From Kroppenstedtia eburnea (GTDB taxonomy: Bacteria > Bacillota > Bacilli > Thermoactinomycetales > DSM-45169): DNA of 64,000 nucleotides. Position 1 is the first letter of the stretch; each line of letters starts with the position of its first letter. The stretch is taken from assembly GCF_013282215.1 (NCBI RefSeq), contig NZ_CP048103.1, forward strand, positions 372,001 through 436,000, read 5' to 3'. Below the pieces are notes generated by a model, which saw only the letters and a list, made by a program, of their open reading frames with translations, had not been told where the DNA came from and did not search any database. Positions 21,954 through 48,362 of the stretch are shown here, piece after piece. The position numbers and the translations under genes were made by a program.

Positions 21954-24900
21954 ATGAATAAGTCAGGGAGTATGAATGTTCAACAAGATGTTTTTGTGTT
22001 ACCTGCTTCCTATGCACAGGAACAACTATGGTTTTTTGAACAGATGCAGCCGGAAAGCCCTGTTTATAATTTGGTGTTCGGTTACCGTTTGACCGGTCCG
22101 TTGGACCTTGGCGTGTTAAAAAGGTGTCTCGATGAGCTCATCCGTCGTCATGAAACGCTTCGTACGACTTTTTCCAAACAGAATGGAAAGCCGGTTCAAG
22201 TGGTGCATCCCCCTTTTTCTTTATCGATACCTGTGGTCGATTTGGCATCTTCTCCTCTTGAGGATCGGCTCGACCTTGGGTTGCAAGAGGCGAAAAATGA
22301 GGGAGCCCGTCCTTTTAACCTCACAGAAGGACCCTTGTTCAGGGTGAAGTTGATTCGGTTGGAGAATCTGGATCATTTGTTAATCTTCAATGTGCATCAT
22401 ATTGTGTTTGATGGCTGGTCAGCCAATGTTTTCTTAAAGGAACTGACACAATTGTACAGGTCTTTTTCCCTTGGGGAGCCCTCCCCTCTTCCGGAATTGA
22501 CTCTGCAATATGCAGACTTTGCTTACTGGCAAAAGGAAAAGATGGAGGAGAAGGAGATTGAGGATCGTATTTCTTATTGGGAGAAGAAGTTGAAGCCGGA
22601 ACCTCCCCGGCTGGAGTTGCCGACTGATGATCCTTATTCAACAACACAGACGTTTTCGGGGGCGATTGAGACTTTTTCATTGCCACAGTCCATCACCAAA
22701 CGGCTGAAGGTATTGGGAGAGGAAGAGGGATCCTCACTGTTCATGGTGCTTTTGGCGGCGTTCAAGTCATTTCTCCACCGTTACACAGGCCAAACCGATT
22801 TGACTTCCGGTGTCGCTGTGACAAGTCGGAATCGCAGTGAACTGGAAGGAATGATCGGATATTTCGTTAATCAGCTGGTGGTCCGGACCGATGTATCGGG
22901 AATGCCCAGCTTTCGTGAGTTGATCCAACGTGTACGCAAGGAATTTCTTGAATCCGTCCATCATGACATTCCTTTCGGCAAGCTGGTGGAGCATCTGAAG
23001 CCGGAGCGAATAGCGAATCATAATCCTTTTTTTCAAGTGATGTTTCTCTTTGAAGATGAATCCGACGGACAAAAAGAGTTGGCACCGGGTATTGAGATGA
23101 AGCCGTTGGAAATTGACAATGGAACGGCTAAATTTGAGTTGGCCCTCCGTTTTAAGAATGATCGGGATTCTCTGATTGGAGAGTTGGAGTACAACAGCGA
23201 CTTGTTTCGTCGGGACAGTATTCAGAATATGATTGAACATTTAATTACATTGCTTAAACATGCCACGGAACACCCGGATCAATCGGTTGCCTCGTTGCCC
23301 ATCTTAACCGAGAAGGAGCGGCATCTATTCTCGCAAGAGCGGAGCAAAGAGAGTTTTCAGTATCCGGATCTCAGGTTGGTTCACCAACTGATTCAGGAGC
23401 AAGCAGAGCGGATCCCCGATGTGGTGGCAGTGGTTGGAGAACAAGGAAGACTTACCTACGGTGAATTAAATCGAAGAGCAAACCGGTTGGCCCACTATCT
23501 ACGGAAAAAGGGGGTTGGTCCGGGGGTATTGGTGGGAGTTCATCTGGAACGATCCTGGGAACTCATGATCAGTCTCTTGGCCATCTGGAAAGCAGGTGGG
23601 GTTTATCTGCCGCTGGATCCATTCTATCCAAAAGAACGGATCGCGATGATAGTGAAAGATGCCAAGGCTTCTCTCTTGCTGACCAGCCGGAAATTGAGTG
23701 AATCCCTTTCCTCCGGGATAAAGGTGCCGCTTCTCTTAATGGATGAGGAATGGAAGGCCATTGAAGAGGAATCTTCGGCCAACGGAACATTGGCTGGGGC
23801 ATGGAGTCCGGATCACTTGGCTTATGTGATCTTCACTTCCGGATCTACGGGAAGACCCAAAGGGGTCAGCGTGACTCACCGGGCTCTGATGCACCAAATG
23901 GAGTGGACCCGTCGCAAATATCCGTTGGAGATGGAGGATGCAGTCTTGTTTAAAACCTCCATCTGTTTTGACCCCTCTTTAATGGAGATGTGCAATCCGC
24001 TTCTTTGCGGTGCGCGGGTGGTGTTGGGTCCTCCGGGGACGGAAATGCGTCCGGAAAAACAAGTGGAGATCATTCAAAACGAGGGTGTCACCCGTCTACT
24101 GTTGGTTCCATCGATTTTGGAACGGTTGCTGGATCTCCCCTCCTTCTCTGAATGTACCAGTCTGAAAGAAGTTTGGACCGGGGGGGAAATCCTGACTCCC
24201 GATCTGGAGAGACGTTTTTTTTCCAAAATGAAAGCCAACCTGGTGAACATGTACGGGCCCACGGAGTGCTGTATCGGGGTGACCGCATGGGACTGCACTC
24301 CGGAAAAAACCGAGGGCCGCATCCCCATCGGTTCCGGGGCACCTTTTGCACAATTGTATGTACTGGACCATCACATGCAGCCTGTTCCCGCCGGTGTGGT
24401 AGGTGAATTGTATCTCGGAGGGCCGATGCTGGCCGAAGGATATATCAACCGGCCGGATTTAACGGAGGAAGTTTTTATTTCCCATCCCTTTTCCGGGGAA
24501 CCTGGAGCCCGGCTGTACAAGACGGGGGATCGGGTCCGTTATCGGGAGGATGGAACCTTGGAGTGTTTGGGGAGGGTGGACCACCAGGTCAAAGTACGCG
24601 GAGTCCGTATTGAACTGCAAGAGATAGAAGCCCTGTTGAGGAAACATCAGAGCGTGAAAAAAGCGGCGGTTTTGGCACGGGAGGACGAATCAGGTGAAAC
24701 CGGTTTGGTGGCTTACCTGATCCCTGAAGAGGAACCGGTGGCAACGGCCAAACTACGATTATATCTGCAGGATTTCCTGCCGGCATATATGATCCCGACC
24801 CACTTTATCTTTATGGATGCCTTTCCTGTCCACGAGAACAATGGAAAGCTGGATTACAAGGCATTTCCCTCTCCGATACCATCCCGGGACAAGGAAGTAT

Positions 24901-25961
24901 ATCTGGCGGCGCGGGACCGAATGGAACTGGAGATGGTCAAACTCTGGGAAAAGGTTCTTCATATCAACGATATTGGATTGACGGACAATTTTTTTGATAT
25001 AGGTGGACACTCCCTGAAAGCGGTGGAGTTGTTGGATGCCATTCATGAAACATTTGATGTGGAATTGCCCCTTACCACCCTGTTTCAAAAATCCACAGTC
25101 ATGGAACTTTGCGACCATATCCGGGATGAAGTTCCGATATGGGGAGAGATTTTGGTTTGCATGCAGAAAGGGGATGGTTCCGAGGCTCCCTTTGTAATGA
25201 TCCATCCCGGCGGAGGTGGAGTATTATGTTATTATCATTTGACCAAGGCCTTGGGAGCTCATCAAACCGTTTATGGCATACAAGCCGTGGGGTATGATTC
25301 CGGGGAATCCCCATTGACGGACATTCACGAGATGGCCGATCTTTATGTGGAACGGTTATGCGCACAGTTGCCCCGTGGACCATACCGGTTCTTGGGTTGG
25401 TCTTTTGGAGCGACGCTGGCTTATGAGATGACCCGAAGAATGGAGAAGAGAGGAGAAAAGGTGGAGTTTCTGGGGCTTTTGGATGCACATCCTTTTGATT
25501 GCCGGGATGAGAGTTCACTCACGATTTCGAGAAACTCAGACTCATTGGTGGCTTGGGCAGAAAGGATGGGAATGGATAAAAAAGAACTGGAAGGATTGGA
25601 TCGGGAGCAACAACTGTTGAGGATTCTTCGCCTGGGGCAGGAGCGTCAAATCTTGCCTGTGAGCGCAGATGTATCCACCGTTAAAAAATATCTCGAGATC
25701 ATGATGGCCAACCGCAGTGCAGCCCGCAGTTATACGGTAACAAAACCGATTCAGACGGATTTGCACTTGTTTCAGGTGCAAGAATTGTCACCCCTCGATC
25801 CGGTTTCTTTGGTGGATCCGAGCCGGTGGTACAGGCGAACTGCCGGTCATGTGCGGGAATATTCCATCAAAGGTCACCATCATAATCTGATCGATCCTCC
25901 ACATGTGGAATTTTTGGCGAAACAGATTCGACGGGCGCTGATAAAAACGGAAGTGGTTTAA
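21954..25961 (+). CDS. Nonribosomal peptide synthetase, one module with thioesterase (C-A-T-TE)
   Basis: About 1335 residues from an ATG with GGGGGTG upstream; an alternative GTG is at 21915. Domains: condensation (~10-440; active HHIVFDG, His148-149), adenylation (~460-960; FTSGSTGRPKG, YKTGDR, C-terminal GKLDYK lysine), thiolation (Ser1020 in GGHSLK) and type I thioesterase (~1085-1330; nucleophile Ser1150 in GWSFGA, His in GHHHNL). The ten-residue adenylation code I read is DPMLWGMIGK; the leading Asp indicates an alpha-amino acid but I cannot name it. The thioesterase makes this the release module, although it is encoded before the three-module synthetase. Confidence 0.93.
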   Translation: MNKSGSMNVQQDVFVLPASYAQEQLWFFEQMQPESPVYNLVFGYRLTGPLDLGVLKRCLDELIRRHETLRTTFSKQNGKPVQVVHPPFSLSIPVVDLASSPLEDRLDLGLQEAKNEGARPFNLTEGPLFRVKLIRLENLDHLLIFNVHHIVFDGWSANVFLKELTQLYRSFSLGEPSPLPELTLQYADFAYWQKEKMEEKEIEDRISYWEKKLKPEPPRLELPTDDPYSTTQTFSGAIETFSLPQSITKRLKVLGEEEGSSLFMVLLAAFKSFLHRYTGQTDLTSGVAVTSRNRSELEGMIGYFVNQLVVRTDVSGMPSFRELIQRVRKEFLESVHHDIPFGKLVEHLKPERIANHNPFFQVMFLFEDESDGQKELAPGIEMKPLEIDNGTAKFELALRFKNDRDSLIGELEYNSDLFRRDSIQNMIEHLITLLKHATEHPDQSVASLPILTEKERHLFSQERSKESFQYPDLRLVHQLIQEQAERIPDVVAVVGEQGRLTYGELNRRANRLAHYLRKKGVGPGVLVGVHLERSWELMISLLAIWKAGGVYLPLDPFYPKERIAMIVKDAKASLLLTSRKLSESLSSGIKVPLLLMDEEWKAIEEESSANGTLAGAWSPDHLAYVIFTSGSTGRPKGVSVTHRALMHQMEWTRRKYPLEMEDAVLFKTSICFDPSLMEMCNPLLCGARVVLGPPGTEMRPEKQVEIIQNEGVTRLLLVPSILERLLDLPSFSECTSLKEVWTGGEILTPDLERRFFSKMKANLVNMYGPTECCIGVTAWDCTPEKTEGRIPIGSGAPFAQLYVLDHHMQPVPAGVVGELYLGGPMLAEGYINRPDLTEEVFISHPFSGEPGARLYKTGDRVRYREDGTLECLGRVDHQVKVRGVRIELQEIEALLRKHQSVKKAAVLAREDESGETGLVAYLIPEEEPVATAKLRLYLQDFLPAYMIPTHFIFMDAFPVHENNGKLDYKAFPSPIPSRDKEVYLAARDRMELEMVKLWEKVLHINDIGLTDNFFDIGGHSLKAVELLDAIHETFDVELPLTTLFQKSTVMELCDHIRDEVPIWGEILVCMQKGDGSEAPFVMIHPGGGGVLCYYHLTKALGAHQTVYGIQAVGYDSGESPLTDIHEMADLYVERLCAQLPRGPYRFLGWSFGATLAYEMTRRMEKRGEKVEFLGLLDAHPFDCRDESSLTISRNSDSLVAWAERMGMDKKELEGLDREQQLLRILRLGQERQILPVSADVSTVKKYLEIMMANRSAARSYTVTKPIQTDLHLFQVQELSPLDPVSLVDPSRWYRRTAGHVREYSIKGHHHNLIDPPHVEFLAKQIRRALIKTEVV

Positions 25962-26390
25962 AAGAAGGGATTCGCTCTTTCCGTGAAAGACCCCCTGTCT
26001 TCAGAAGTGTAAACTGACAAAACGGTGTCTTTTTTTAAAGAACGTTTGGTTCATGAAGGAACCAAGCGTTCTTTGCTTGTTGAAAAATTGCGGGGAATAC
26101 GGTGGTTGATGTATTGCAGGTGCTTTATGATGTCTTTGAAAGTTTGTAAGAAGTGAATAACCCTCTCTTTTGTTGAAAAGGTTGGTTTTAATTGGGCTCA
26201 TGGGTGTGATCACCAAAGATTAAAGGGTTACGGAGGTTGGGAAAATGGTTCTCAGTTAAGACTCCTTTGTGCCGGGTTGGGAAGATGTGGATCTTTGTTT
26301 CCCCTGGGTAGAGGAGTTTTTGTCGTTGAGTGGAGAGGATGTAAAGGCAAGTCTCGATTAAAAAGATAATGGATGAAAGGAGCCGATGAG
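25962..26390 (+). other. Gap between synthetase and oxygenase genes, with a strong hairpin
   Basis: No gene. Positions 26036-26074 form a long stem (AAAGAACG, then TTGGTTC / GAACCAA, then CGTTCTTT) with a 6-base loop, placed 75 bases after the synthetase stop. It is likely a terminator, though its T run is short. The oxygenase therefore probably has its own promoter somewhere in 26080-26370. Confidence 0.55.
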
Positions 26391-27425
26391 GTGAAAACTT
26401 CATGGGAAAAGAGAAAGAAGTTTGCCAAACCGACCCCGATTCGTACAGATCAGCAGGAGATGATCCAGATCGGAAATCTTTTTGATACAGGCCAGTTGCC
26501 GATGTTGGTCACTCCCCGGGTCCCCGACGTGGATCTGACGGAATGGGTAAAGAGCCGGAGAGATTTTATTGAACAGAAATTAAGGATACACGGCGGCATT
26601 CTTTTCAGAGGATTTGATATTCATACAGAAAAGGATTTTCAAACATTCACTGATAAAAACATTCTTGTTCCCATGCAATACAAGGAGGGAGCCACACCTC
26701 GATCCAAGGTGACTGAAAACACGTACACTTCCACTGAATTTCCCTCCGATCAGCATATTGCGTTGCATAATGAACTGTCCTATGTGACCACTTGGCCACA
26801 AAAGATATGTTTTTGCAGTATAACTCCTCCGAAGGTGGGTGGAGAAACGCCGATTGTGGATGTGCGCCGGGTTTATGAGCGATTGGATGTTTCTCTCAGA
26901 GATAAATTCGCAGAAAAAGGCTGGATGCTGGAGCGGAACTATGGCGACGGTTTCGGATTGAGATGGCAGGATGTTTTCCATACAGAGGATCCAAAGGAAG
27001 TGGAAAAGTATTGCAAAGAAAATCAAATAGAATTTGAGTGGAAAGACGAAATCCACCTCAGGACTCGACAAGTTCGGTCTGCTGTGAGAAAACACCCGGA
27101 TACCGGTGAGTGGTTGTGGTTCAATCATATTGTTTTCTGGCATGAGTCCAGCCTGGAGTCGAAAGTACGGGAGATGCTCATTGAAAGCTTTGGAAGGGGG
27201 AACCTCCCTTACAACACCTATTATGGAGACGGTACGCCCATAGATTACAAAGATGCGGAGCATATTCGGAATGCTTATGATCAGGAGACCGTGTCCTTCC
27301 GATGGGAAAAAGGGGATGTTTTGTTGTTGGATAACATGTTGGTGGCCCATGGGCGAAATCCTTTTAGCGGAGACCGGAAGATACTGGTTTCGATGGGGGA
27401 GCCGTACACTCCGGAGAATTTGTGA
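26391..27425 (+). CDS. SyrP/TauD-type Fe(II)/2-oxoglutarate oxygenase
   Basis: About 344 residues from a GTG eight bases after AAAGGAG. It is a TauD/TfdA (clavaminate synthase-like) fold. Iron ligands: His126-x-Glu128 in ALHNELSYV and distal His320 in MLVAHGRNPFSGDRKIL; the following Arg would bind 2-oxoglutarate. The HNE variant is typical of SyrP-like enzymes that hydroxylate amino acids held on NRPS carrier domains. It lies 15 bases before the three-module synthetase, whose first domain is a non-catalytic condensation-like domain. I infer beta-hydroxylation of the first residue, which has a glutamine-like code. Confidence 0.88.
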   Translation: MKTSWEKRKKFAKPTPIRTDQQEMIQIGNLFDTGQLPMLVTPRVPDVDLTEWVKSRRDFIEQKLRIHGGILFRGFDIHTEKDFQTFTDKNILVPMQYKEGATPRSKVTENTYTSTEFPSDQHIALHNELSYVTTWPQKICFCSITPPKVGGETPIVDVRRVYERLDVSLRDKFAEKGWMLERNYGDGFGLRWQDVFHTEDPKEVEKYCKENQIEFEWKDEIHLRTRQVRSAVRKHPDTGEWLWFNHIVFWHESSLESKVREMLIESFGRGNLPYNTYYGDGTPIDYKDAEHIRNAYDQETVSFRWEKGDVLLLDNMLVAHGRNPFSGDRKILVSMGEPYTPENL

Positions 27426-27440
27426 TGAGGGGGCTGTTTG

Positions 27441-30400
27441 ATGGAAAGTCAGCTGCAAGGTTTCGAGCTTTCACCGATTCAGAAAAGGATCTGGAAACTG
27501 AGACCGGAGAATGAGCGACATCCGTATCAGATGAAATTGGCTATTTCCATTGAAGGAAATCTGGACCGCAGACGACTGAAGGAAGCGTTGGGACGATGGG
27601 TTGAAAGGCATGAGAGCCTGCGCACGGAATATCACTGGGTTGTCGGGATGAGATATCCCCTGCAAGTGATCAAGGAGCAGAGGGAGTTTTCTATTGAGGA
27701 ATCGGATTGGGATCCCGGGAGAAGTGAAAAGGAAGTTCTGAGGGAAATAGGGGGATCTGATGGATTGTCAGCTCGGCTGATCCGTCAATCTCCTGACCGG
27801 CACGTACTCCTTTTGTCGATTCCGACGATTTGTGCTGACTTGGAGACGAAAACTATTCTCAGGGAGTTGGTCCGCTTATACAGCGATCCGGAGAGCGAAA
27901 GAGAAGAAGCACTTCAATATGTGGCTGTTTCCGATTGGCTCAACGAAGTTCTTCATTCGGAGGAAGGAAGAACAGGCAGAGAATACTGGGACCGGGTTGA
28001 TTATCAATCCCTTCTCGATATTGGTCTTCCCGGAGAAAAAAAACACAAGTCTCCTTTTGAGCCTTCTCTTGTTTCGTTTCCAATAAAAGAAGAAACAAAA
28101 GAAAAAATAGATAGGTTCTCCCGCAAATATCAACTGCCCCACTGGCAGATCCTCCTGTCAGCTTGGGCGGTGTTGTTACGTTTTTTGACCGGCAAAGAGG
28201 ATGTTTTGGTGGGAACCGGCTTTACCGGAAGAACAGATGAAGAACTGGCGGAAGTCATTGGGAGTTTATCACGGTATGTTCCGATTCGGAGCAAGATCAC
28301 TTCGGAAACTCCTTTTGAAAAAGTTTTGACACAGATTGGCAGACTGACAGGGGAAGCAGAGCAGTGGCAGGAATGCTTTAACCCCGGAGGGGGAGACAGA
28401 GAGGATCGCCGTTTTCCCTTTGCTTTTGATGCGTTGGATTTGGCGGGGAAATGTTCCGGAGGAGGGGTCTCTTTCTCCATCCGGGATCAGGTGGTGCATC
28501 TGGAACCTTTTCATGTCAGGTTATCCTTTGTGATGAAGGAAAACGGCTGGTTTGTGGAATTCAACTACGATAAAAATGTGTTAACAGAGCAGAGTGTCCG
28601 GATATTGGGAGGCCAGCTTTTCACCTTATTGGATAGTGCACTGGAACACCCGGAGTCACCCATCCGACAATTGAAGATGATAAGCGCTTCGGAAAAGCAG
28701 CAGGTTCTGTCCGGGTTTAATCGGGGGACCGTGTCGAAGCCTCCGGAAAAATGTTTGCACGAGTTGTTTGAGGAGCAAGTGGCGAAAACGCCGAACCGGA
28801 TGGCTGTCAAAATGGGAAGCCGATCTTTGACTTATGAAGAACTGGATCGGAAGGCGAACGGTCTGGCGGAACAGCTGGTCCGCATAGGAGTGCGGCCCGA
28901 GTCAATCATTGGAATTTGTGCCGATCGTTCGCTTGAAATGGTGATGGGGATGTTGGGAGTCCTGAAAGCGGGCGCCGCCTATCTACCTCTCGATCCCGGC
29001 CAACCGGAATCCAGGATCCATTCCATCTTGGAAGATGCCACTCCCGTTGCGGTCTTAACTCAGAAAAAATGGGTCCGCCATTTCGAAGGATTTACAGGAC
29101 AAAAGGTTTTTCTGGAAGAGAGTGATGGTTGGAATCAAACAGTTCCTCCCAATGTACATGTGAAGTCGGAATCCCCGGCATATGTCATCTATACCTCGGG
29201 CTCCACAGGCCTTCCCAAAGGTGTTGTTGTGGAACACCGAGCTGTCTGCAACCATATGGAGTGGATGAATCAACGGTTTCCCTTGACCAAAGGGGATCGG
29301 GTTTTGCAAAAAACCTCCATGAGTTTCGATGCATCCATTTGGGAATTTTATGCTCCCTTGTTGTCAGGGGCCTGTCTGGTGATGGCTGAACCGGGAATTC
29401 ACACGGACCCCTTTGATTTGGCGGATGCTGTGATCCGGGAACGGATTTCCGTTCTTCAGGTTGTTCCTTCCATGTTGCGGATGTTGTTGGAAGAAAGCCG
29501 CTTCCATGAGTGTACAGGCTTAAAACGGGTGTTCAGCGGTGGAGAGGAATTAACAGTCGAACTGACGGGAGAATTTTTCCGCTGTTTGCCTGAGACTGCT
29601 TTAATCAACCTTTATGGGCCCACGGAGACGTGCATTCAGGTTTTGTATTATGAATGCAGAGGTGAGGAGTCGGGAAGCATTCCGATCGGAACTCCCATAT
29701 CCAACATGGGAATTTTCATTTTGGATGAAAGTATGGAGCCTGTTCCCATCGGCATGGTCGGTGAAATTTATGTGGCAGGTCCCGGCTTGGCGAAAGGATA
29801 TCTCAACCGTCCGAAGTTAACGAATGAGAGGTTCCTTCCCCATCCCTTTGGCAAAGGGCGGCTGTATAAAACCGGAGATTTGGGAAGATGGTTGCCTGAT
29901 GGAAATGTGGAATTTGTGGGGCGGCGGGACCACCAGCTCAAAATCAGAGGTTTTCGGGTGGAGCCGGGAGAGGTTGAAGAAGCGCTGCGTAAACATGATT
30001 CCATCCGTGATGTGGTGGTGGTCGGAGGAAAAACCCCGGGGGAAAGTGTCTCGCTATGTGCATATGTCATCACCAAAGGGAAATCAGATGTGGCCACTTT
30101 GAGAAACCACCTTTCACAGTGGTTGCCTGATTATATGATTCCTTCCCATATAGTATTTATGGAACAGTTTCCGATGACACTCAGCGGGAAGGTGGATCGT
30201 GACGCGCTTCCGGAACCACAGGTGGCACAGATGGTGAAGGAGGACTCAGGTGGGCAACCCACCACTGCCTGGGAAGAAGAAGCGGTCCGTATTTGGTCGG
30301 AAGTACTCGGGGTGGGACGGGTGGGTATCCACCACAACTTTTTTGAATTGGGAGGGCATTCCTTGTTGGCTGTACAGGTAACCTCCCAAGCCCGCCGTCA

Positions 30401-37004: not shown

Positions 37005-37134
37005 ATTAGGAAATGAAGACTGTGGTTTTTGTGGTCAGTTATTTGCGTAAATTACGGATGTGGTGGCAAAGGAGCTGTTTTAATCTAATGGTAAGAAAAA
37101 GATTGGATGTAATTAGTGGAAAGGGTTGGTATCG

Positions 37135-37773: not shown

Positions 37774-37778
37774 TCTTC

Positions 37779-39505: not shown

Positions 39506-40420
39506 TTGAAAACAGCAGTTGTGTTTCCAGGCTTTTCCCCCTCTTCGTATCCAGAGGTCCAAGAGTTTATTGAATCCAATGGGTATGCGGAAAAATGGTA
39601 CAGCAGGGCGGAAGATATATTGGGCTACTCCCTGAAGGAGGCTTTTCGAGAAGCAACAGAAGCAGATTGGGAAATCAATGAACTTGCCTTTTTGATTAAT
39701 ACTCTCGCTTTGGCCGACTATGCCGGAGAAAATCATTCTTTAACTCCTGAATATTGTATGGGGTCCAGCTTCGGGGGGATGATCGGGGCGGTTTATACCG
39801 GAAGTCTTTCATTGGCTGATGCGCTTTGGCTGTCCTATCAAAGTACAAACCGGGAGAAACGTTATATGACTGAACGGATTTTCAACCGGTATCAGACAGA
39901 TTTCATCTATCAATATCCGGCGGAGCGGGTCATGCAAGATGTTCGGGATTATACGGAGAAAGGAAAATACCTGGAGATCTCCTCTTATTTATCGAGAAAC
40001 TTGGTAGCAGTTTCAGGTGAAATGGATGTCATCCGAGAGATGAAGAAGAAGGTGAGACAAGCACGGGGGATATCTCTTTTTACGATGGATCGTTTGATTC
40101 ATTGCAAAAAGTTGAAAGAAATTAAAGAAATTGTCGGACGGGAGGTTCATAGCAAAGTCTCTTTCCGTCCTCCGAGAATACCTATGATCTCTGATATCGA
40201 CGGCAGTATTTTGGTGGAACCCGTTAAGATTAAAAACCTGTTGCTGGACTGGTTTGATCAGCCGGTGCGGATGCATTTGGCGAAAACAACGATGAAAAAA
40301 TGCGGAATTGAAAAGGTGTTTGTGGTGGGTCCCCGCAGTATATTCGGTTCGTTGATGAGCGAAGACTTTTCAGTCGAGGTGATCAGCCCGGAGACTGCAT
40401 GTCAAACAGCCACCGGGTGA
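39506..40420 (+). CDS. FabD-like acyltransferase 2
   Basis: 304 residues from a TTG with AGGAGAGG upstream. It has the FabD entry MKTAVVFPGFSPSSYPEV, nucleophile Ser88 in GSSFGG, and catalytic His199 in RLIHCKKL. It is related to but clearly different from its upstream neighbour. No Arg in the usual malonate-carboxylate position is obvious to me, so it may use another acyl unit or act as an acyl hydrolase. It overlaps or nearly touches the acyl-activating enzyme gene. Confidence 0.8.
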   Translation: MKTAVVFPGFSPSSYPEVQEFIESNGYAEKWYSRAEDILGYSLKEAFREATEADWEINELAFLINTLALADYAGENHSLTPEYCMGSSFGGMIGAVYTGSLSLADALWLSYQSTNREKRYMTERIFNRYQTDFIYQYPAERVMQDVRDYTEKGKYLEISSYLSRNLVAVSGEMDVIREMKKKVRQARGISLFTMDRLIHCKKLKEIKEIVGREVHSKVSFRPPRIPMISDIDGSILVEPVKIKNLLLDWFDQPVRMHLAKTTMKKCGIEKVFVVGPRSIFGSLMSEDFSVEVISPETACQTATG

Positions 40421-40434
40421 ATGGGGTGGAACTG

Positions 40435-41883
40435 ATGGACATTTCACAGAGACAGGGGAGATTGCTGCTCCCTGATCGCTCCTTCTCTCACTGGGAATTC
40501 AAAGCGGATGTCATCCGGTTTGCTGATGAGCTGCAAGTGAAGGGGTTGGCTACCGATGAACGTGTCATCCTCAAATGTTCCAATTCCTACACCTTTTGTG
40601 TGGCATTATTCACCTTGATGCATCTCAATACATCCGTTGTCCTGATGGATGTGGAGATGAATCCCAATGAGATGGATGAAATCCAATGCCGAACAGGAGC
40701 GAAATGGTTTTTGACAGATGATGATTCCCGTTTATCCGATTCCGCTTGTGTTCAAATCAAACTTCCTTGTTTTGAAGAAAGGGCACAGCCTGAGGGGGAT
40801 GGGGATCGGGAAATCTCCCTGATGGGGTGGTTGGAACGAAAGGATGCTGTCATTCTGTTTTCCTCCGGTTCCACTGGAAAGCCAAAGGGGATTGTGAAGT
40901 CGGGAAAATCGGTTGTTTGCAATTTGAGAGCGACGGCGGAAGCAATGCAGTATCGGACCGACGACGTTCTGTTGCCGATGGTTCCGTTTTTCAACACCTG
41001 GGGGTTCTTTTTGCTCCTCATTTGGTGGTTGACCGGATGTTCTTTGCTGATCTGTAATTATCGGTATACCAAAAATCTGGTGCGTTATCTTCTTCGCCAT
41101 CGAGTGACGATTGTGGAGGCGACCATCTCGACGACCTATTCCACTTTGCAATTATTGAAACGTCAACCAGAGGTTATGGAGAAGGTCAAGAATTCCTCAC
41201 TCCGTATGTGGTACACCAGTGGCGCCCCTGTTCCCAACAATCTGAAAAGGGATTTTTACGATCATCTGGGACAACCTCTCTTGGATTACTATGGCTCGAC
41301 AGAGGCCGGGAATTTGACGGCTGGTCATCCGGATGACTGGGTCGGAAGTGGGAAGATCATCGCCGGTGTCGATGTGAAGGTGGTGGATTCAGAAGGAAAA
41401 CAACTTCCACCGGGGCAGATCGGTGAAGTTTTTGCCAAAGGAAATGCCCTTATGGAAGGGTATATCCTGTCACCTGGAGAGTATCATCTGGATTTGCAGG
41501 ACGGATGGATGGATATGAAAGACTTTGGATACTTTGATGAATCTGGTCACTTGCATGTGTTGGGAAGAAAAGACGAAGCCATACATCGGATGGGGTCCAC
41601 TTTTTATCTCTGTCACATGGAAAGATTGGTGGAAGATTTGGGTGTTCTGTCCAAGGTCGTGGCTCTTCCAGATGAGAGAAAGGGTGCATACTTAGTGCTG
41701 TTTGTACAGCACCCGGAGTCCGAAATTGCTGCCATCCGTAAAAAAATCCTCAGAACCCTTCCCACCTATATGTATCCGGATAAACTCATCTGCCTGGAAG
41801 AATTTCCGTTTTTGCCCGTTGGAAAAGTGGACGGAAAATCTTTGGAGAGAAGAGCGGAGGAACTGATCGCGCCCGTACTGTAA
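40435..41883 (+). CDS. Acyl-activating enzyme (AMP-dependent synthetase/ligase)
   Basis: About 482 residues from an ATG with GGGGTGG before it; an upstream ATG at 40399 would overlap the previous gene. ANL-family motifs: FSSGSTGKPKG (P-loop), YYGSTEAGN, a hinge LGRKDEAIH and the C-terminal catalytic lysine in VGKVDGKS. It activates a carboxylic acid as an adenylate and passes it to CoA or an ACP. It carries no carrier domain of its own. It is a plausible source of the starter acyl unit for the KAS III or for the peptide N-terminus. Confidence 0.85.
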   Translation: MDISQRQGRLLLPDRSFSHWEFKADVIRFADELQVKGLATDERVILKCSNSYTFCVALFTLMHLNTSVVLMDVEMNPNEMDEIQCRTGAKWFLTDDDSRLSDSACVQIKLPCFEERAQPEGDGDREISLMGWLERKDAVILFSSGSTGKPKGIVKSGKSVVCNLRATAEAMQYRTDDVLLPMVPFFNTWGFFLLLIWWLTGCSLLICNYRYTKNLVRYLLRHRVTIVEATISTTYSTLQLLKRQPEVMEKVKNSSLRMWYTSGAPVPNNLKRDFYDHLGQPLLDYYGSTEAGNLTAGHPDDWVGSGKIIAGVDVKVVDSEGKQLPPGQIGEVFAKGNALMEGYILSPGEYHLDLQDGWMDMKDFGYFDESGHLHVLGRKDEAIHRMGSTFYLCHMERLVEDLGVLSKVVALPDERKGAYLVLFVQHPESEIAAIRKKILRTLPTYMYPDKLICLEEFPFLPVGKVDGKSLERRAEELIAPVL

Positions 41884-41944: not shown

Positions 41945-43000
41945 TTGGGAGCGGAATTGTTGAACGTGGAGAGAACTGTCAACACCAGTGGTCTATCAGT
42001 TCCGGTTGGGATCAGCGGGACAGGAATGTATGTGCCCGACCAGCTGGTGACCAATGAGGATCTCGTTCAAAATCTGGATACTTCGGATGAATGGATTGTT
42101 ACAAAAACGGGAATCCGGGAACGGCGGTTTTTGCGGGAGGGCGAACTCACTTCCGACATGTGCGTAAAGGCGGCGGAGGCTGCCATGGCAGACGCTGGGG
42201 TGACTCCCGGGGATTTGGATGCCATCATTATCTCTACATTCACATTTGATCAACTGCTGCCGTCCACAGCATTGATTGTCAGAGAACGGCTGGGGGCGGA
42301 CCGGGCGATTCCGATCGATTTGAATCAAGCGGCATGTGCCGGAAGTATTTATGCCATTTGGACAGGATGTCACTTGATGCAAAATCAACAGATCCGCTGT
42401 GTATTAGTGATTGGAGCGGAAGCGCTTTCCCGCATCACCGACCCGGAAGATCGGAGTACCCGCGTGTTTTTTGGAGATGCGGCAGGGGCCGTGGTTTTGA
42501 ATCGAACGCAATCCAATTACGGCATTTTGTCATGGGATTTGGATGCCGCTTTGTCTTACAGTGTGGAAGTGCCCGCCGGCGGAGCCAAAAGCCCAACCAC
42601 AGCAGACACGGTACGCCAAAGGGAACACTTTTTGAAAATGGATGGGAGAAAAGTTTGGACGGAAGCAAACCAACGCCTTCCGAATACGATTCAATCCGTA
42701 ATAAAAAAAGCCGGTTTGCATTTCGGGGAAATTGATCATTTTTTGATACACCAAGCAAATTTGAACATTGTAAAAGAGGTTTTCAACACTTTGGGAGAGT
42801 CGATGAGCAAAGCCACAAACAATGTGGACCGGTTTGGGAATACAGGTGCAGCGACTGTGTTTACGGTATTGCATGAAGCCTTGGCAAGGGGTCGGATTAA
42901 ACATGGAGACCGTATCATCATGGCTGCGATTGGTGCCGGATTTATTTGGGGCTCCTTGTGTTTCCGATACTCTGATGAATCATGGAAAGGAGATCAGTGA
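41945..43000 (+). CDS. Beta-ketoacyl-ACP synthase III-like enzyme
   Basis: 351 residues from a TTG with GGGGGA upstream. FabH fold with the triad Cys131 (NQAACAGSIYA), His in FLIHQANLNI and Asn in FGNTGAAT, where FabH usually has NTSAA. The GIRERRF entry and FGDAAGAVVL are conserved. It condenses an acyl starter with a malonyl-type ACP. Clustered with the free ACP directly downstream, two acyltransferases and an SDR, it probably makes a specialised short acyl unit and is not the housekeeping FabH. Confidence 0.9.
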   Translation: MGAELLNVERTVNTSGLSVPVGISGTGMYVPDQLVTNEDLVQNLDTSDEWIVTKTGIRERRFLREGELTSDMCVKAAEAAMADAGVTPGDLDAIIISTFTFDQLLPSTALIVRERLGADRAIPIDLNQAACAGSIYAIWTGCHLMQNQQIRCVLVIGAEALSRITDPEDRSTRVFFGDAAGAVVLNRTQSNYGILSWDLDAALSYSVEVPAGGAKSPTTADTVRQREHFLKMDGRKVWTEANQRLPNTIQSVIKKAGLHFGEIDHFLIHQANLNIVKEVFNTLGESMSKATNNVDRFGNTGAATVFTVLHEALARGRIKHGDRIIMAAIGAGFIWGSLCFRYSDESWKGDQ

Positions 43001-43001
43001 A

Positions 43002-43265
43002 ATGACGAAAGAGAAGGTTAAGCAAATGTTTATTGACTGCTTCGAGCTGTCCATGACCAAGGATGAGTTAAAAGATGATGTCGCGCTCTTCGGGCCCAAT
43101 TCCCCCTTTGGTCTGGATTCTATGGATATCCTGAAGTTTATCACGATTATAAAGGATGAATTTCAGATTAATCTGGGCTCGATCAGAACGGACACCTTCA
43201 GCACGGTAAACCAAATCACTCAAACCATAGAGGAGCACCAAGGGGCTCCAGCTCAAAATTCATAG
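43002..43265 (+). CDS. Acyl carrier protein
   Basis: An 87-residue ACP, MTKEKVKQMFIDCFELS, with Ser40 in the phosphopantetheine site FGLDSMDIL. Its ATG follows AAGGAGATCAGTGAA and lies 2 bases after the KAS III stop. It is the last gene of the GNAT-to-ACP operon and should be activated by the Sfp-type transferase encoded next. Confidence 0.9.
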   Translation: MTKEKVKQMFIDCFELSMTKDELKDDVALFGPNSPFGLDSMDILKFITIIKDEFQINLGSIRTDTFSTVNQITQTIEEHQGAPAQNS

Positions 43266-43335: not shown

Positions 43336-43387
43336 ATTTACAGCCTTATATGGATAATTCTGATATTCCGCTTGTGGGGTGGGCCCG

Positions 43388-44110
43388 ATGTGTGTCGATT
43401 TTGAAGGGATGGGGATGGAGAAAGGCCACTCGGAACTGCATCTGTGGGTCTTGAACTTGAATGAACTGGTGAAGTCAATTGACATGTTGAAAAACCTCCT
43501 GAGCAAAGATGAACATGAGCGGGCGAATCGTTTTGCATTTGTAAAGGACCGGAATCGGTTTATTTGCTTTCGGGGAGTATTGAGATGTCTTCTGGGGCGT
43601 TACATGGGTCAAAATCCCCGTGAGGTGCAGATCATGTATGGGGAATTTGGGAAGCCGTTTCTGAAACAGGAAAGGATTTTCTTTAACGTTTCACATTCCC
43701 ACCACATGGGATTGATCGGAATATCCCGTTCCGATCCGCTGGGAGTGGATATTGAACAGATTCGCTCATTTCCGGAAGCACAGCTGTTGTCGGAGCAATT
43801 CTTTTCAGATCGGGAAAAAAGAATGATCCGACAAACACAAGGGGATATAAAGGCCTTCTTTCGGATTTGGGCCCGCAAAGAGGCTTTTATCAAAGCTCTG
43901 GGGCGCGGATTGAGCCAATCCTTGGAGCGTTTTGATGTTGTGGATGAGTCGGGCGGTTGGATTGAATATATCAATGATTCACGGGGAAGTGAAAGGTATC
44001 AAGTTCGGGATTTATCGGTAGATCCGGATTACTCAGCCGCCTTATGCTTCCAAGGTAATGGAAAACCACATATTCGCATGCAAACTTTTCTGCTAAAGTC
44101 TTTCTTTTGA
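43388..44110 (+). CDS. Sfp-type 4'-phosphopantetheinyl transferase
   Basis: About 240 residues; the start is uncertain between ATG codons at 43388 and 43415. Family motifs are in order: RFICFRGVLRCLLG, GKPFL, FNVSHSH, GVDIEQI (magnesium-binding Asp and Glu) and FFRIWARKEAFIKALGRG. It transfers phosphopantetheine from CoA to the serine of carrier domains, activating the four NRPS carriers and the free ACP. It sits between two terminator-like or repeat regions and is probably transcribed alone. Confidence 0.93.
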   Translation: MCVDFEGMGMEKGHSELHLWVLNLNELVKSIDMLKNLLSKDEHERANRFAFVKDRNRFICFRGVLRCLLGRYMGQNPREVQIMYGEFGKPFLKQERIFFNVSHSHHMGLIGISRSDPLGVDIEQIRSFPEAQLLSEQFFSDREKRMIRQTQGDIKAFFRIWARKEAFIKALGRGLSQSLERFDVVDESGGWIEYINDSRGSERYQVRDLSVDPDYSAALCFQGNGKPHIRMQTFLLKSFF

Positions 44111-44179
44111 AATCGTAGCTGCAAGATAGAGGGTGGAAATGACAAATATTGTAGCTTTGTTTCCGGTCCGGGGAGACCA

Positions 44180-44422: not shown

Positions 44423-44729
44423 GTACTGTCTTGAGTATTACTTCGGGAGAGTCAATTCCGGGACTATGGTAGTGAACAGTAAAAAATGTATTTTCAATAT
44501 ACATAGACTGATAAGTTTTTCTTAAAATCGAAAACTTCCTATTGCCATTTTGATTGGGCTACTATATATTGAGTATATATAAATAAATACCATTTAAGTA
44601 TTCTTTATTTATTATTTATGAAGAATACCAAATTATTTATTAAGATTCCTCAACACCTATATCCTGCTGCTAGCAAGAAGTTGATTTGACCGGGTTGTTC
44701 GTTCTTAACATGGGTATGAGGTGATGATC
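44423..44729 (+). promoter_or_regulatory. AT-rich leader of the LuxR gene
   Basis: No gene. This is the most AT-rich stretch of the window. GTATTCTT (44598-44605) and AAGAATAC (44621-44628) form an 8-bp inverted repeat with a 15-base spacer, a possible regulator site. ATATATTGAGTATAT near 44563-44577 differs by two bases from the PadR-like operator palindrome. The promoter of the regulator gene must lie here. Confidence 0.45.
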
Positions 44730-45395
44730 ATGAGCCAAGATATTCGAGTATTGTCAGTGGGGAACTTTGCCTATTCAAAAAGTTTGGAACACATCCTTAA
44801 ATTTGATTCACACATTGAGTACGATGTATGCCGGACGAAAGAATTGACCAGCAAAGGTAAAAACGCGGATGTGATTGTGGCCTTTTCCGCGAGTTTGAAG
44901 GCCGCAGACAAAATTATTCGAGTATTCAATTCAAATTTCGTCGGACTTCAAACACGGGTGATTTTTGTGGTAAATCATTTTGTTGAAGGGTACCTCCAAT
45001 TTCTTGAGAGAGGGGCGGGAGGTATCGTTCTTCAAAAAAACACAACCGAATTGGTTCGGGCGGTACAAGTGGTTCGGAACGGAGGCTGGTATTTTTCTTC
45101 GGATTTGATAGAACGGATCCATCACTTGATTCATGGTAATCTGCATCCTCATAAGTTGCCATTGACAGCTATGGAAATGAAGGTTGTTCAGGAGTTGCTC
45201 AAAGATAAAACCAATCAACAGATTGCGGAAGCGCTTTATGTCAGCAGACGAACAGTGGAATATCACATTGCTTCTGCTATACAGAAATTAGGTGTCAATT
45301 CCAGAGTGGGTCTTGCAGTGAAGATCATGCAATGTTATCGACCTTTTTTTCATGGAACCTTTGAAGAGAACGTTGAAAAACTGGCAATTACGTAA
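44730..45395 (+). CDS. LuxR-type regulator with degenerate receiver domain
   Basis: 221 residues from an ATG with GAGGTGAT upstream. The N-terminal half (~5-125) has the size and layout of a response-regulator receiver, but the phospho-acceptor region reads DVIVAFSASL, with no Asp at the usual place. The C-terminal LuxR helix-turn-helix (~145-205) is intact: LTAMEMKVVQELLKDKTNQQIAEALYVSRRTVEYHI. No histidine kinase gene is nearby. It is likely a phosphorylation-independent regulator of the peptide cluster or of the exporter that follows. Confidence 0.85.
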   Translation: MSQDIRVLSVGNFAYSKSLEHILKFDSHIEYDVCRTKELTSKGKNADVIVAFSASLKAADKIIRVFNSNFVGLQTRVIFVVNHFVEGYLQFLERGAGGIVLQKNTTELVRAVQVVRNGGWYFSSDLIERIHHLIHGNLHPHKLPLTAMEMKVVQELLKDKTNQQIAEALYVSRRTVEYHIASAIQKLGVNSRVGLAVKIMQCYRPFFHGTFEENVEKLAIT

Positions 45396-45485
45396 ATAAA
45401 TAACGAAATATTAAAAAAACACTGGATCTATAAAGTTATTTTTCATCCCATGAGAATAAGTTTTTACTTCAATCAAAGGGAAGTG

Positions 45486-46463
45486 TTGGGTTTGGGTTCC
45501 ATCATAGAAGTGAAGAAGTTGAAAAAAAGTTTTGTCCGAAAAGGTGGAAAACCAATCAACGCTGTTGATGACATCTCTTTTTCAGTTCAAGAGGGGGAGA
45601 TTTTCGGATTGCTGGGACCCAACGGGGCCGGTAAATCCTCCGTCATACGTATGATGTGTGGACTCTTGACTCCGGAACAGGGAGATATACGGATATGTGG
45701 CCATCAAGTAAAAAATAACCGCAGAAAATCATTGCGCCATATCAGTGCGGTTTTAGAAGGGAACCGCAATTTGTACTGGCGGATGACGGTGAAGGAGAAT
45801 ATAGCATATTTTGTGGGGAACAGGGGTTATTCTTACCGACAGATTCAGTCCGATGTGGATCGATTGATGAAACAATTCAAGATTGAGCATAAAGAAGACG
45901 AATTGGTAGGGAATCTCTCCAGAGGAATGCAACAGAAGTTGGCAATTTTGATTTCCCTGGCAATCGGAACGGAAGCGATTCTGCTGGATGAACCTACTCT
46001 CGGCTTGGATGTGGAGACGACAGAGGAGCTGAAGAGAATTCTTGTCCAAATTTGCATGGACTTTAAAAAGACCATTATCGTCAGTACACATGACATGAAG
46101 TTGGTTGAAGAGATTTGCGACCGGGTGGTCATTGTTAATCAGGGGAAAAAAGTGGTGGAGGACTCTGTTGAGAATTTGCTTGATCTGTTTCGTACCAAAA
46201 CATATCAGATGAGAGTAAAAGGAGGGAAAATCTCCGAAGAGGTTTTTGATCGCATCCAATCCCGGTTTCCATGGGTTCGGTTTGATGCCGAGAACAGAGT
46301 TTACCTGGTGAATATCAAAGAAGGAGAGATGTTTTTCCCTTTGATGGAGGTATTGAAAGAAGAATCGGTTTCCCTTGAGAGTATTGAGACGGTGACAGTT
46401 GATTTTGAGCGGGTATACACTACCTTGTGTGAGAGGAACTTCAAAGATGTTATCCATGTTTAA
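45486..46463 (+). CDS. ABC transporter ATP-binding protein (ABC-2 exporter)
   Basis: About 325 residues. The start is uncertain: TTG codons at 45486 and 45492 follow AAAGGGAA, while an ATG at 45450 has no ribosome binding site. Motifs: Walker A GPNGAGKSS, signature NLSRGMQQKLAI, Walker B AILLDEPTLGLD, switch STHDM. The ~80-residue C-terminal extension is typical of ATPases of the drug-exporting ABC-2 class (DrrA/NodI-like). The permease gene overlaps by 17 bases. The pair probably exports the peptide or confers self-resistance. Confidence 0.9.
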   Translation: MGLGSIIEVKKLKKSFVRKGGKPINAVDDISFSVQEGEIFGLLGPNGAGKSSVIRMMCGLLTPEQGDIRICGHQVKNNRRKSLRHISAVLEGNRNLYWRMTVKENIAYFVGNRGYSYRQIQSDVDRLMKQFKIEHKEDELVGNLSRGMQQKLAILISLAIGTEAILLDEPTLGLDVETTEELKRILVQICMDFKKTIIVSTHDMKLVEEICDRVVIVNQGKKVVEDSVENLLDLFRTKTYQMRVKGGKISEEVFDRIQSRFPWVRFDAENRVYLVNIKEGEMFFPLMEVLKEESVSLESIETVTVDFERVYTTLCERNFKDVIHV

Positions 46464-47217
46464 AATGAATATTCTTAAACAGTACTTTGAGTTTAAAAGA
46501 TATTTTTTCAACACGCTTCTGGAAGTGATCAGTCTTTATATTGTTTTGATGGGACTTCTCCTCGGTTTCAGCATGGTTGGTGGAGAAGTGGATCATTTTG
46601 AGGAAAAAATGGAGTATGTGGTGGCCGGATATATTATTTGGATCATTTCTTATACCGCTGTCCAGGCGATCGGTTATGAAGTATATAACGATTTGCAGAG
46701 AGGGACGTTGGATCAACTGTATATGACTCCGTTGCCGGTTTGGCAAATTATGCTGGGACGGATGGTTGGAAATGTAATGTTTCGGATTGTGGGAGTTGTA
46801 TTGTTGTTATTGCTGTCCATGGTGACAACGGGCATATATCTTTACTTTGATCTACTCACTTTGTTACCAATTTTCTTGGTCACATTGATCAGTATGTTCG
46901 GTGTGGGGTATATGGTTGCCGGATTGTGTCTGTTATTGAAACAGGTGTCCAACTTATTGATGTTTTCCCAACTCCTCATGATGTCAGTCATTTACATACC
47001 TTTGGAATCGGCCCCTTATCTAAAGTATTTACCATTCATTTACGGAGTGGACCTCCTTAAAAAAACGATGCTCTATGAAGCGCATTTAATTGATTTTTCC
47101 TTGTGGCAATATGGATTCTTGGCATTGAATTCCCTGTTTTATTTTATACTGGGAATCTACTGCTATTCTCTTTGTGAAAAAACAGCTTTAGATCGGGGGA
47201 TTCTGGGAAAGTATTGA
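46447..47217 (+). CDS. ABC-2 type transporter permease
   Basis: About 256 residues starting MLSMFKMNILKQYFEFKRYF. Six hydrophobic segments lie at ~20-45, 58-80, 105-135, 140-170, 175-195 and 225-250. The motif EVYNDLQRGTLDQLYMTPLP is the conserved ABC-2 element before the third helix. It works with the overlapping ATPase gene as a small exporter. The substrate is inferred from position only. Confidence 0.85.
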   Translation: MLSMFKMNILKQYFEFKRYFFNTLLEVISLYIVLMGLLLGFSMVGGEVDHFEEKMEYVVAGYIIWIISYTAVQAIGYEVYNDLQRGTLDQLYMTPLPVWQIMLGRMVGNVMFRIVGVVLLLLLSMVTTGIYLYFDLLTLLPIFLVTLISMFGVGYMVAGLCLLLKQVSNLLMFSQLLMMSVIYIPLESAPYLKYLPFIYGVDLLKKTMLYEAHLIDFSLWQYGFLALNSLFYFILGIYCYSLCEKTALDRGILGKY

Positions 47218-47235
47218 GACTTCGTAATTACCAAA

Positions 47236-47478
47236 ATGTTAACTGGTTGCAGATCCGGGAACGGATTGGAATCCGACACCATTTGTTTGGTAAGCGGTCA
47301 TCCAATTCCACTTCACCCTTTCGACGGATTTTAAACAGAAAGAGACAGAGTTCAATCAGATCAGTGCAGAGTGGGAAGACCGGGAGAGAAAGGTGGAGGA
47401 TGCGATTCTACTATCAAAGCGGCTATTTCCAATGAGGAGGATTCAACCCGATGATCGGTTCAAATGAAATGTTAAAAG
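47236..47478 (+). pseudogene. Possible small frameshifted gene
   Basis: Two protein-like pieces lie in adjacent frames. One is ~32 codons from an ATG at 47236 ending HPIPLHPFDGF. The second runs to a TGA near 47478 (TEFNQISAEWEDRERKVED, then LLSKRLFPMRRIQPDDRF). They would join into ~76 residues if one T of the TTTT run near 47333 were removed. No ribosome binding site precedes the first piece and no family is recognised, so it may be noise. The second piece overlaps the start of the kinase gene. Confidence 0.25.
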
Positions 47479-48362
47479 GAAAGGGAAGTTCTTTTGGAAC
47501 CTTCGGTGAATTGCTCCAAGGTGTGGATACGGAGGGACGGGATTTTTTAGTCACTTTCCCCATATGCCGATATTCACATGCTTTTTTTACCCCGGACAGC
47601 CATCAGAAAGGGGTGATGGTGGAGCCCGATTTTAAAGAAAAGTCCCGCTTGCTGGCAGAATGGATTTTAGATCATTATTCATTTCCGGTGGGGGGCAAGC
47701 TGAAGATCGAAAGTGAACTTCCCGTGGGAAAAGGGATGTCCAGCTCTTCGGCTGACCTTGTGGCCACTGCACGGGCAGTGGAGTCCTGCATGGGGATCGA
47801 GGTCCCGTTGGATCTGCTGCAAAGGTTGATGAGGAGGATTGAGCCTTCCGATGGAGTGATGTATCCCGGCGTGGTCTCCTATTATCATCGCAACGTTTCA
47901 TTATGTGAATTTCTGGGTTGGCTACCCGGGTTGACAGTTGTGGGTCTGGATGAGGGTGGTGAGGTGGATACCATCCAGTTCAACCAGATTCCGAAGATGT
48001 TTTCGAAGTCGGAAAAAATGTTGTACAGTCAATTGTTGAAAAGTGTAACTGAGGCTCTGAAAAGAAGAGATCTGATTACGGTTGGACAGGTGGCCACCCA
48101 AAGTGCTTTGATGAATCAAAAGTTGAAGCCAAAAAAGAACTTGCAGGAATTGATATCCTTATGTGATACGGTGGACGGCCTGGGGGTGATTGTGGCCCAC
48201 AGCGGTACTTGTTTGGGAGTGTTGTTGGACCAGAGTCGTCCGGATTACGATGAACAATTGAGTGAATTGATGGAAAGGACACAAAAGTTGTTGCTTGCAC
48301 CGGAACTTTTTTATTCATTGAATGTCTCCCCGTCCCCGATGGGAAAACTGGCGGTTTATTAA
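47451..48362 (+). CDS. GHMP kinase, PduX/L-threonine kinase-like
   Basis: 303 residues, ATG ten bases after GAGGAGG. The entry GTFGELLQGVD and FLVTFPICRYS match the PduX-type GHMP subgroup, and the phosphate-binding loop is LPVGKGMSSSSADLV (~residues 90-104). GHGH-like C-terminal motif appears as AHSGTCLGVLL. PduX phosphorylates L-threonine for cobalamin synthesis, but no cobalamin gene is present here. In this setting it may phosphorylate an amino acid precursor or the peptide product itself. A terminator follows, so it ends the exporter transcript. Confidence 0.82.
   Translation: MIGSNEMLKGKGSSFGTFGELLQGVDTEGRDFLVTFPICRYSHAFFTPDSHQKGVMVEPDFKEKSRLLAEWILDHYSFPVGGKLKIESELPVGKGMSSSSADLVATARAVESCMGIEVPLDLLQRLMRRIEPSDGVMYPGVVSYYHRNVSLCEFLGWLPGLTVVGLDEGGEVDTIQFNQIPKMFSKSEKMLYSQLLKSVTEALKRRDLITVGQVATQSALMNQKLKPKKNLQELISLCDTVDGLGVIVAHSGTCLGVLLDQSRPDYDEQLSELMERTQKLLLAPELFYSLNVSPSPMGKLAVY

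Follow-up and report, generated by a model that had tools for sequence, protein, structure and literature searches.

The peptide synthetase cluster and its adenylation-domain codes

A nonribosomal peptide synthetase (NRPS) gene cluster of Kroppenstedtia eburnea was analysed in a 64,000-bp stretch of its single-contig genome (3.56 Mb), located at G000:C1:372001-436000 and referred to here as the window; positions are counted from its first base. The cluster is real and intact. Every gene that a first-pass annotation had listed at 21954-48362 was found there on the + strand, in open frames with family matches, the acyl carrier protein (ACP) being the weakest call; the flanking cluster genes described below lie on the + strand as well. 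Chance was excluded since seven other genomes shared gene sets with the window. The extent given by that annotation contained the listed genes but was too narrow, because genes at 16764-21686 and 52497-53165 recurred with the relatives; the wider cluster spans about 16764-53165.

Relatives were sought in a class sample of 398 genomes, evenly drawn from a larger group. G009 is Paludifilum halophilum DSM 102817, the other G-numbers are genomes of the bacterial class, and g47 is one genus with three genomes. Neighbourhoods were compared by tblastn, with weak NRPS and ABC matches filtered out of the tables, and were rechecked in one table at E≤1e-5 that covered the best three matches per locus for each query. 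The stretches read were 80 kb for G001, 60 kb for G004 and 40 kb for G115. The Pfam scan covered 20 window proteins.

The core of the cluster consisted of two NRPS genes. The protein encoded at 21954-25961 was organized as condensation-adenylation-thiolation-thioesterase (C-A-T-TE), carried the last module, and was 69% identical to its counterpart in G009 and 70% in G001. The protein encoded at 27438-36938 had the order C*-A-T-C-A-T-C-A-T, with four condensation-like, three AMP-binding and three PP-binding Pfam matches (71% identity in G009, 61% in G001). This agreed with the four modules in two proteins of the first-pass annotation. Its statement that all motifs were intact except in the first C domain held for HHxxxD, which was seen in the second, third and TE-module C domains, for GGHSL in 4/4 T domains, and for GWSFG in the TE domain. 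It did not hold for the second C domain, which reads HHLICDL and not HHxxxDG, or for the two FabD-like proteins, which had lost the malonate-binding Arg.

A-domain codes were read, and their meanings assigned, by the specificity-position rule, with the alignment anchored by eye on window module 1 (the first of the three-module protein). The module-1 code was DAWQFGLIQK in the window and in G009, which we take to be a Gln-type code, in keeping with the Gln-type residue proposed earlier; elsewhere it was DVWHFSLVDK (G001) or DVWHI(S/G)LIDK (g47). The next two codes of the window, DDVQISTIDK and DARHFSLMVK, followed the patterns DDVQ(I/V)STIDK and D(A/V)RHF(S/A)(L/F)(M/L)(V/A/I)K, respectively, each present in 8/8 genomes. 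The last-module code was DPMLWGMIGK in the window, DP(T/S)(Q/H)FGL(V/I)(A/V)K in g47 and G115, and DALQIGLIDK in G004, with G009 and G001 outside this part of the table.

The first condensation-like domain and the TauD-type oxygenase

A gene for a TauD-family Fe(II)/2-oxoglutarate oxygenase (26373-27425; PF02668, 8.3e-48; 78% identity in G009) preceded the three-module NRPS gene, and its product is a predicted beta-hydroxylase of residue 1. The N-terminal condensation-like domain of the three-module protein (27438-28790) matched the Pfam Condensation family, with SIPTICAD in place of HHxxxDG. The first-pass annotation had taken this domain as broken; the motif was indeed gone, but the change was shared with relatives as a TauD-associated type and was not an isolated loss.

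Searching for relatives of this domain gave six matches at E≤1e-40, including the window, among the 398 class genomes. A plasmid search (458 records) listed 20, of which 11 were examined (all except H2-H4, H11, H15 and H17-H20). HHxxxDG was absent from 11 relatives besides the window, namely G009, G251, G218, G123 and seven cyanobacterial plasmid records (H1, H5-H10), and the cyanobacterial relatives carried a shared replaced motif, for example LPALCAD. A homologue of the window TauD protein (42-78% identity) was encoded within about 1 kb upstream in 10 of the 11. One gene, a methyltransferase (annotated as hypothetical in H9), lay between TauD and the NRPS in H6, H9 and H10, and in H5, H9 and H10 the TauD-homologous stretch was the end of an upstream NRPS or C-domain gene.

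Relatives with an intact HHxxxDG (H12, H13, H14, H16 and G092) had no TauD gene (0/5) in the upstream stretches read (1.5 to 5 kb). A better control was G001, whose orthologous NRPS carries an intact first C domain in the corresponding position and where no TauD gene was found in the 80 kb read. By eye, the A domain after the degenerate C domain was Asn-like in H1, H7 and H8 and Asp-like in H5 and H6 (five of the seven cyanobacterial records); that of G251 started with DAWQ, like the window.

With TauD encoded just upstream in 10/11 relatives, the domain is more probably a docking site serving the hydroxylation of residue 1 than a decayed one, and by these sequence comparisons the first C domain is likelier to be a TauD-associated type known from other bacteria than an isolated loss. 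It is predicted to be an interface-like docking domain. Interface domains are not known to carry HHxxxDG, and those of beta-hydroxy siderophore NRPSs resemble the window arrangement in that a C-like domain without this motif adjoins a TauD-type hydroxylase; the window differs in its Gln-like residue. In the available parts of two papers, TauD-type beta-hydroxylases and interface domains serve as siderophore markers (PMC12230676, PMC12971057). In two of the plasmid loci, from Nostoc carneum and Trichormus variabilis (L119, L120), a phytanoyl-CoA dioxygenase gene was observed two to three genes past the degenerate-C NRPS, besides the upstream TauD homologue.

Acyl-handling and diamino-acid genes

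Downstream of the NRPS genes lay the acyl-building gene set of the first-pass annotation, which was supported. A GNAT acyltransferase (37126-37773; PF13302, 8.8e-8) was 78% identical in G001 and G009, 57% in G004 and 52-55% in the three g47 genomes, and its predicted role is tailoring N-acylation or self-protection. A short-chain dehydrogenase/reductase (SDR; 37770-38531), a FabG-like 3-oxoacyl reductase, scored 237 bits against a cut-off of 222 for NF009466 and was 74% identical in G004. Two FabD-like proteins, FabD1 (38561-39493) and FabD2 (39506-40420), were followed by an acyl-activating enzyme (an AMP ligase, FusF-like; 40399-41883; Pfam AMP-binding, 7.2e-49; 50% in G004). The beta-ketoacyl-ACP synthase III (KAS III, FabH-like; 41945-43000; TIGR00747, 298.8 bits against a cut-off of 292.1) carried its Cys, His and Asn motifs by eye; it was 62% identical in G001 and G009 and 53-54% in g47, and the nearest other copy in its own genome was 41% identical. 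The stand-alone ACP (42996-43265; motif GLDSMD; 65% in G004) scored 19.9 bits in Pfam against a cut-off of 20.8, and NCBIfam acyl-carrier models matched at 5e-6, below their cut-offs. A phosphopantetheinyl transferase (PPTase; 43379-44110; Pfam ACPS, 2e-18) had homologues in only the three g47 loci among those of the seven relatives, at 25-28%.

One Arg of FabD binds malonate. This Arg was replaced in 7/7 FabD1 proteins (by Met, once by Leu; Met in the window), in 8/8 FabD2 proteins (by Ser) and in 7/7 actinomycete VinK-like proteins (by Leu or Met); it was kept in the housekeeping FabD of the genome and in the acyltransferase of a second cluster described below, and the Ser and His were kept in all 24 sequences compared. 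A malonyl transferase was rejected as unlikely for FabD1 or FabD2, since the Arg was missing in every family member compared. Comparison of FabD2 with solved structures gave E 4.6e-40 over 292 residues for VinK (PDB 5czd) and 3.5e-11 for the best ordinary malonyl-CoA:ACP transacylase (MCAT). A tree of all 24 placed FabD2 together with the actinomycete VinK-like proteins and apart from FabD1 and FabD (support 100/99), under a long-branch warning. FabD2 resembles VinK, a carrier-to-carrier acyltransferase, in these comparisons. FabD1 matched ordinary MCATs at 2.9e-24 and PksD weakly, at 8e-6.

Four of the seven actinomycete loci (L043, L045, L046, L048) had, immediately in front of the VinK-like gene, a gene for a ligase 35-37% identical to that of the window. 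By eye, L045 and L046 also had an amine-oxidase-like gene, followed in L045 by a large polyketide synthase (PKS), and L046 had a nitrilase-like gene; these gene sets presumably recall 4-guanidinobutyryl starter loading of the ECO-02301 type. VinK moves a dipeptide from VinL onto a PKS loading ACP, according to the part of the source available (PMC11284099). VinK of vicenistatin serves a PKS, whereas no PKS gene was seen in the window cluster.

The acyl genes were compared with those of fusaricidin from Paenibacillus polymyxa, where fusG-F-E-D-C-B encode FabI, an acyl ligase, an aldehyde dehydrogenase (ALDH), an acetolactate-synthase-like protein, a KAS and FabZ (PMC6829208, Table 1, from a partial text). 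G271 showed this gene order, and its FusF-position protein shared 36% identity with the window ligase; the likeness is a FusF-like ligase in an NRPS cluster. The window differs in having KAS III, SDR, ACP and two FabD-like proteins and no FusD or FusE, FabZ, FabI or KAS II. At E≤1e-5, no homologue of ALDH, the thiamine pyrophosphate enzyme (TPP), KAS II or FabZ was found in the window, and the FabI query matched the SDR only; the ALDH, FabZ, KAS II and FabI searches covered the window. The TPP search matched 7/398 genomes at E≤1e-90, with no match at this threshold in the window genome or G004. FusE- and FusD-like genes were present in G001, G009, G115 and the three g47 genomes. Edeine, considered for comparison with respect to the acyl residue, was dropped, as the part of the source available gave no gene list for comparison.

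The GHMP kinase gene (47451-48362; Pfam GHMP, 2.2e-11) encodes a predicted Thr or Ser kinase. Its relatives at E≤1e-40 occurred in 35/398 class genomes, so the kinase alone is no marker of the family. In 7/7 relatives it was accompanied by homologues of an argininosuccinate-lyase-like protein (ASL), a CysK-like protein, an ATP-grasp protein and an aldolase, which in G004 were split across both sides of the acyl genes. The best match of the G004 CysK-like protein was TIGR03945 (SbnA, 2,3-diaminopropionate biosynthesis) with 265.8 bits, below the cut-off of 349.95, and the aldolase matched the GntG family above cut-off. The ATP-grasp protein had the first half of PRK02186 as its best match and the lyase had the second half as its second-best, both below cut-off. 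The module-2 pocket was also seen by eye in G252 and G216, beside GHMP, ASL, CysK-like, ATP-grasp and aldolase genes.

From these neighbourhoods the GHMP kinase is predicted to belong with 2,3-diamino-acid genes. In such a gene set, dabC encodes a kinase. The dabABC genes of friulimicin are 2,3-diamino-acid genes (PMC11117518, available in part). The likeness to dabABC and SbnA lies in the GHMP-type kinase of the window and the SbnA-like and lyase genes of the relatives, whereas the window genome keeps its SbnA-like and lyase genes in another cluster. That second cluster (about G000:C1:1340679-1372269) had a GHMP kinase gene of its own alongside ASL, CysK-like, ATP-grasp and aldolase genes, with the SbnA-like and argininosuccinate-lyase-like genes at G000:C1:1340679-1343303. 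Since the diamino-acid genes are missing from the window, supply by the second cluster is an assumption. It is an NRPS/PKS cluster, and its NRPS gene at G000:C1:1357187-1364326 (L031) was split inside an A domain into frames of 681 and 1689 aa, whereas in the relatives from G252 and G216 a single long frame covers this place.

Cluster family and proposed product

The FabD2 marker gave strong matches in 4/10 genomes of the bacterial family, the own genome included. In the class sample it matched 10/398 genomes at E≤1e-15, eight of them at E≤2e-68 (G000, G001, G004, G009, G115, G138, G295 and G322) and two weakly (G123 and G387); all eight carried the GHMP kinase. No match at E≤1e-15 was found in the same-genus genome G003. 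A scan of genome contigs with FabD2 gave 31 loci, of which the best was Paludifilum halophilum DSM 102817, followed by seven actinomycete loci at 29-31%; the other 23 were weak FabD-like matches. The window cluster is one member of an apparently undescribed cluster family: no such cluster was found in the open-access literature searched, in searches mostly aimed at single parts.

In P. halophilum (G009), the NRPS pair, TauD and GNAT genes were followed by ABC, permease and PadR genes, and the acyl and diamino-acid genes lay on the opposite side. Its three-module protein had the same three codes, and SDR, FabD1, FabD2, ligase, KAS III, ACP, GHMP kinase, exporter, LuxR, PadR and DUF4097 genes were shared. 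Its cluster is larger, however, with ALDH, TPP, FabI, KAS II, FabZ, ASL, CysK-like, ATP-grasp and aldolase genes, and the acyl genes were 38-65% alike; no PPTase homologue was found in the loci read, and the literature searched held no description of this cluster. G001 was similar to G009 apart from its lack of TauD. The g47 order was KAS II, NRPS A-T-C-A-T-C-A-T, NRPS C-A-T-TE, ASL, GHMP, CysK-like, ATP-grasp, aldolase, LuxR-like, GNAT, SDR, FabD1, FabD2, ligase, ALDH, TPP, KAS III, ACP and PPTase. G115 had FabD2, ligase, ALDH, TPP, KAS II, FabI, FabZ, NRPS and diamino-acid genes, and G004 had five modules and, in the 60 kb read, neither ALDH nor TPP. The known Paludifilum peptides in the available part of one report (gramicidin S and cyclic dipeptides; PMC5551467) did not fit. 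Thermoactinoamide did not fit either; this cyclohexapeptide of Thermoactinomyces vulgaris, taken as related, is made by two trimodular NRPSs (PMC7253712, also available in part).

The window cluster is a mosaic in its sequence affinities. The SDR, FabD1, FabD2, ligase, ACP, GHMP kinase and exporter were closest to G004 (74, 64, 58, 50, 65, 63 and 64%, respectively), while NRPS, TauD, GNAT, PadR and DUF4097 were closest to G009 and G001. KAS III breaks this pattern, as it was 62% identical in G009 and G001 while G004 had none. In trees, the window grouped with G004 for the ligase (100/100) and for FabD1 and FabD2 (100/98), and with G009 and G001 for the A domains of modules 2 and 3 (93/72 and 98/96), all under long-branch warnings. 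Exchange of the acyl cassette would explain the missing ALDH and TPP genes.

The remaining genes of the cluster encode transport and regulation. At the left, an ABC ATPase (16764-17507) and a large ABC permease (17374-19929) were 68-69% and 55% identical to genes beside the G009 and G001 NRPS genes, followed by a PadR-family regulator (20091-20600; PF03551, 9.6e-19; 83% in G009, 79% in G001) and a DUF4097 protein (20937-21686; Pfam, 3.8e-23; 60% in G009, 56% in G001, 33% in G004). Between the PPTase and GHMP kinase genes lay a LuxR-type regulator (44721-45395; Pfam GerE, 1.8e-15), with homologues in 7/7 relatives' loci, and an ABC exporter with Pfam matches, consisting of an ATPase (45450-46463) and an ABC-2 permease (46399-47217), at 57-59% in G001 and G009. 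At the right were a second copy of the cluster-type ABC ATPase (51632-52372) and a conserved membrane protein with no Pfam match (52497-53165), present in 7/7 relatives' loci. The two ABC ATPase copies flank the cluster and both match one gene in G009 and G001; the right-hand copy is closer to the relatives (78-79% versus 68-69%) but has no large permease after it. An AcrB-type resistance-nodulation-division (RND) transporter gene (48487-51510) directly follows the GHMP kinase gene, and no homologue was found at E≤1e-5 in the loci read from the seven relatives, the threshold being 1e-15 for the second half in the case of G001. Tandem arrays of a similar 51-53 base unit were observed at 8540-8890 and 61085-61232, 52 kb apart.

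On balance, and with moderate confidence, the locus is read as an intact NRPS cluster whose product would be a short tetrapeptide, both acylated and beta-hydroxylated, and as a mosaic member of an apparently undescribed family. The three-module protein would start with a Gln-like residue, and TauD would dock on the degenerate C domain and hydroxylate this residue while it is carrier-bound. Module 2 would add a 2,3-diamino acid (diaminobutyrate or diaminopropionate), the first step of its formation being carried out by the window GHMP kinase and the SbnA-like and lyase steps coming from the second cluster. Module 3 and the C-A-T-TE protein would add two residues and release the product. The ligase may activate a short acid, which KAS III would extend once with malonyl-ACP from the housekeeping FabD; the SDR would reduce the chain to 3-hydroxyacyl-ACP, and FabD2, with FabD1, may move acyl groups from one carrier to another. 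No condensation is expected of the first C domain, so acyl addition by GNAT or at another carrier is likelier than by a starter C domain. A further proposal is tentative: the FabD-fold pair without malonate specificity would relay the 3-hydroxyacyl group from the ACP into the tetrapeptide line, directly or via GNAT, applying the logic of VinK to an NRPS, while the second cluster supplies the diamino acid.

Several observations weigh against this scheme, starting with the lack of a known product. For the diamino acid, no lyase, CysK-like, ATP-grasp or aldolase homologue was found in the window at E≤1e-5, and family models and the solved-structure profile search matched the window GHMP kinase, weakly, to mevalonate kinases. 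For the acyl group, G004, with the closest acyl genes, had no KAS III in its 60 kb, and GNAT, SDR, FabD1, KAS III and ACP were not found in the 40 kb of G115 at E≤1e-5; those parts are thus not needed in every member. The intact first C domain and Ser-type code of G001 mean that other members could acylate the N-terminus through a C domain. For the hydroxylation, G123 (L131) has a degenerate C domain (VPALHAD) and no TauD within 13.6 kb upstream and 5 kb downstream, the A domains after the degenerate C domain in H9 and H10 were neither Asn- nor Asp-like, and H12, H14 and H16 are weak controls since they are internal domains of long genes.

Other explanations fit parts of the data. If the first C domain had simply decayed, TauD would have another target, such as a free amino acid; the lost HHxxxDG, the intact domain at the same place in G001 and the TauD-free degenerate domain of G123 would agree with this, but the replaced motif shared by the cyanobacterial relatives and the occurrence of upstream TauD (10/11 versus 0/5, with three weak controls) leave decay quite unlikely. 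A siderophore with a beta-hydroxylated residue, as the marker use of TauD-type hydroxylases and interface domains would suggest, is very improbable, as the module-1 code is presumably Gln-like and not Asp-like and no siderophore-uptake, catechol or hydroxamate family appeared among the 20 Pfam-scanned proteins.

The acyl genes might instead produce a long-chain omega-guanidino fatty acid like that of fusaricidin, giving a guanidino lipopeptide. This draws on the FusF-like ligase and on the FusE- and FusD-like genes of six relatives, but a guanidino chain was rated lower for the window because TPP and ALDH are missing there at E≤1e-5; KAS II and FabZ are missing as well, and the window's acyl genes fall with those of G004, another locus that has neither ALDH nor TPP, so that we consider it unlikely. 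It is doubtful, too, that FabD1 is a PksD-like proofreading acyl hydrolase and not a transferase. Proofreading acyl hydrolases are not known to carry the malonate-binding Arg, which FabD1 lacks too, and the PksD match, although weak, points the same way; the MCAT match was far better, however, and FabD1 fell on the FabD side of the main tree split.

What had been an orphan cluster now belongs to a family with no fewer than eight members, among which gene gains and losses have occurred naturally. As these concern TauD, the guanidino-type starter genes and KAS III, the role of each part is testable by comparison. The family may offer a compact system for the recruitment of a hydroxylase by a degenerate C domain, for VinK-type acyltransferases in NRPSs, and for the sharing of precursors between the clusters of one genome; if the scheme is true, two clusters in the K. 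eburnea genome would share one precursor route.

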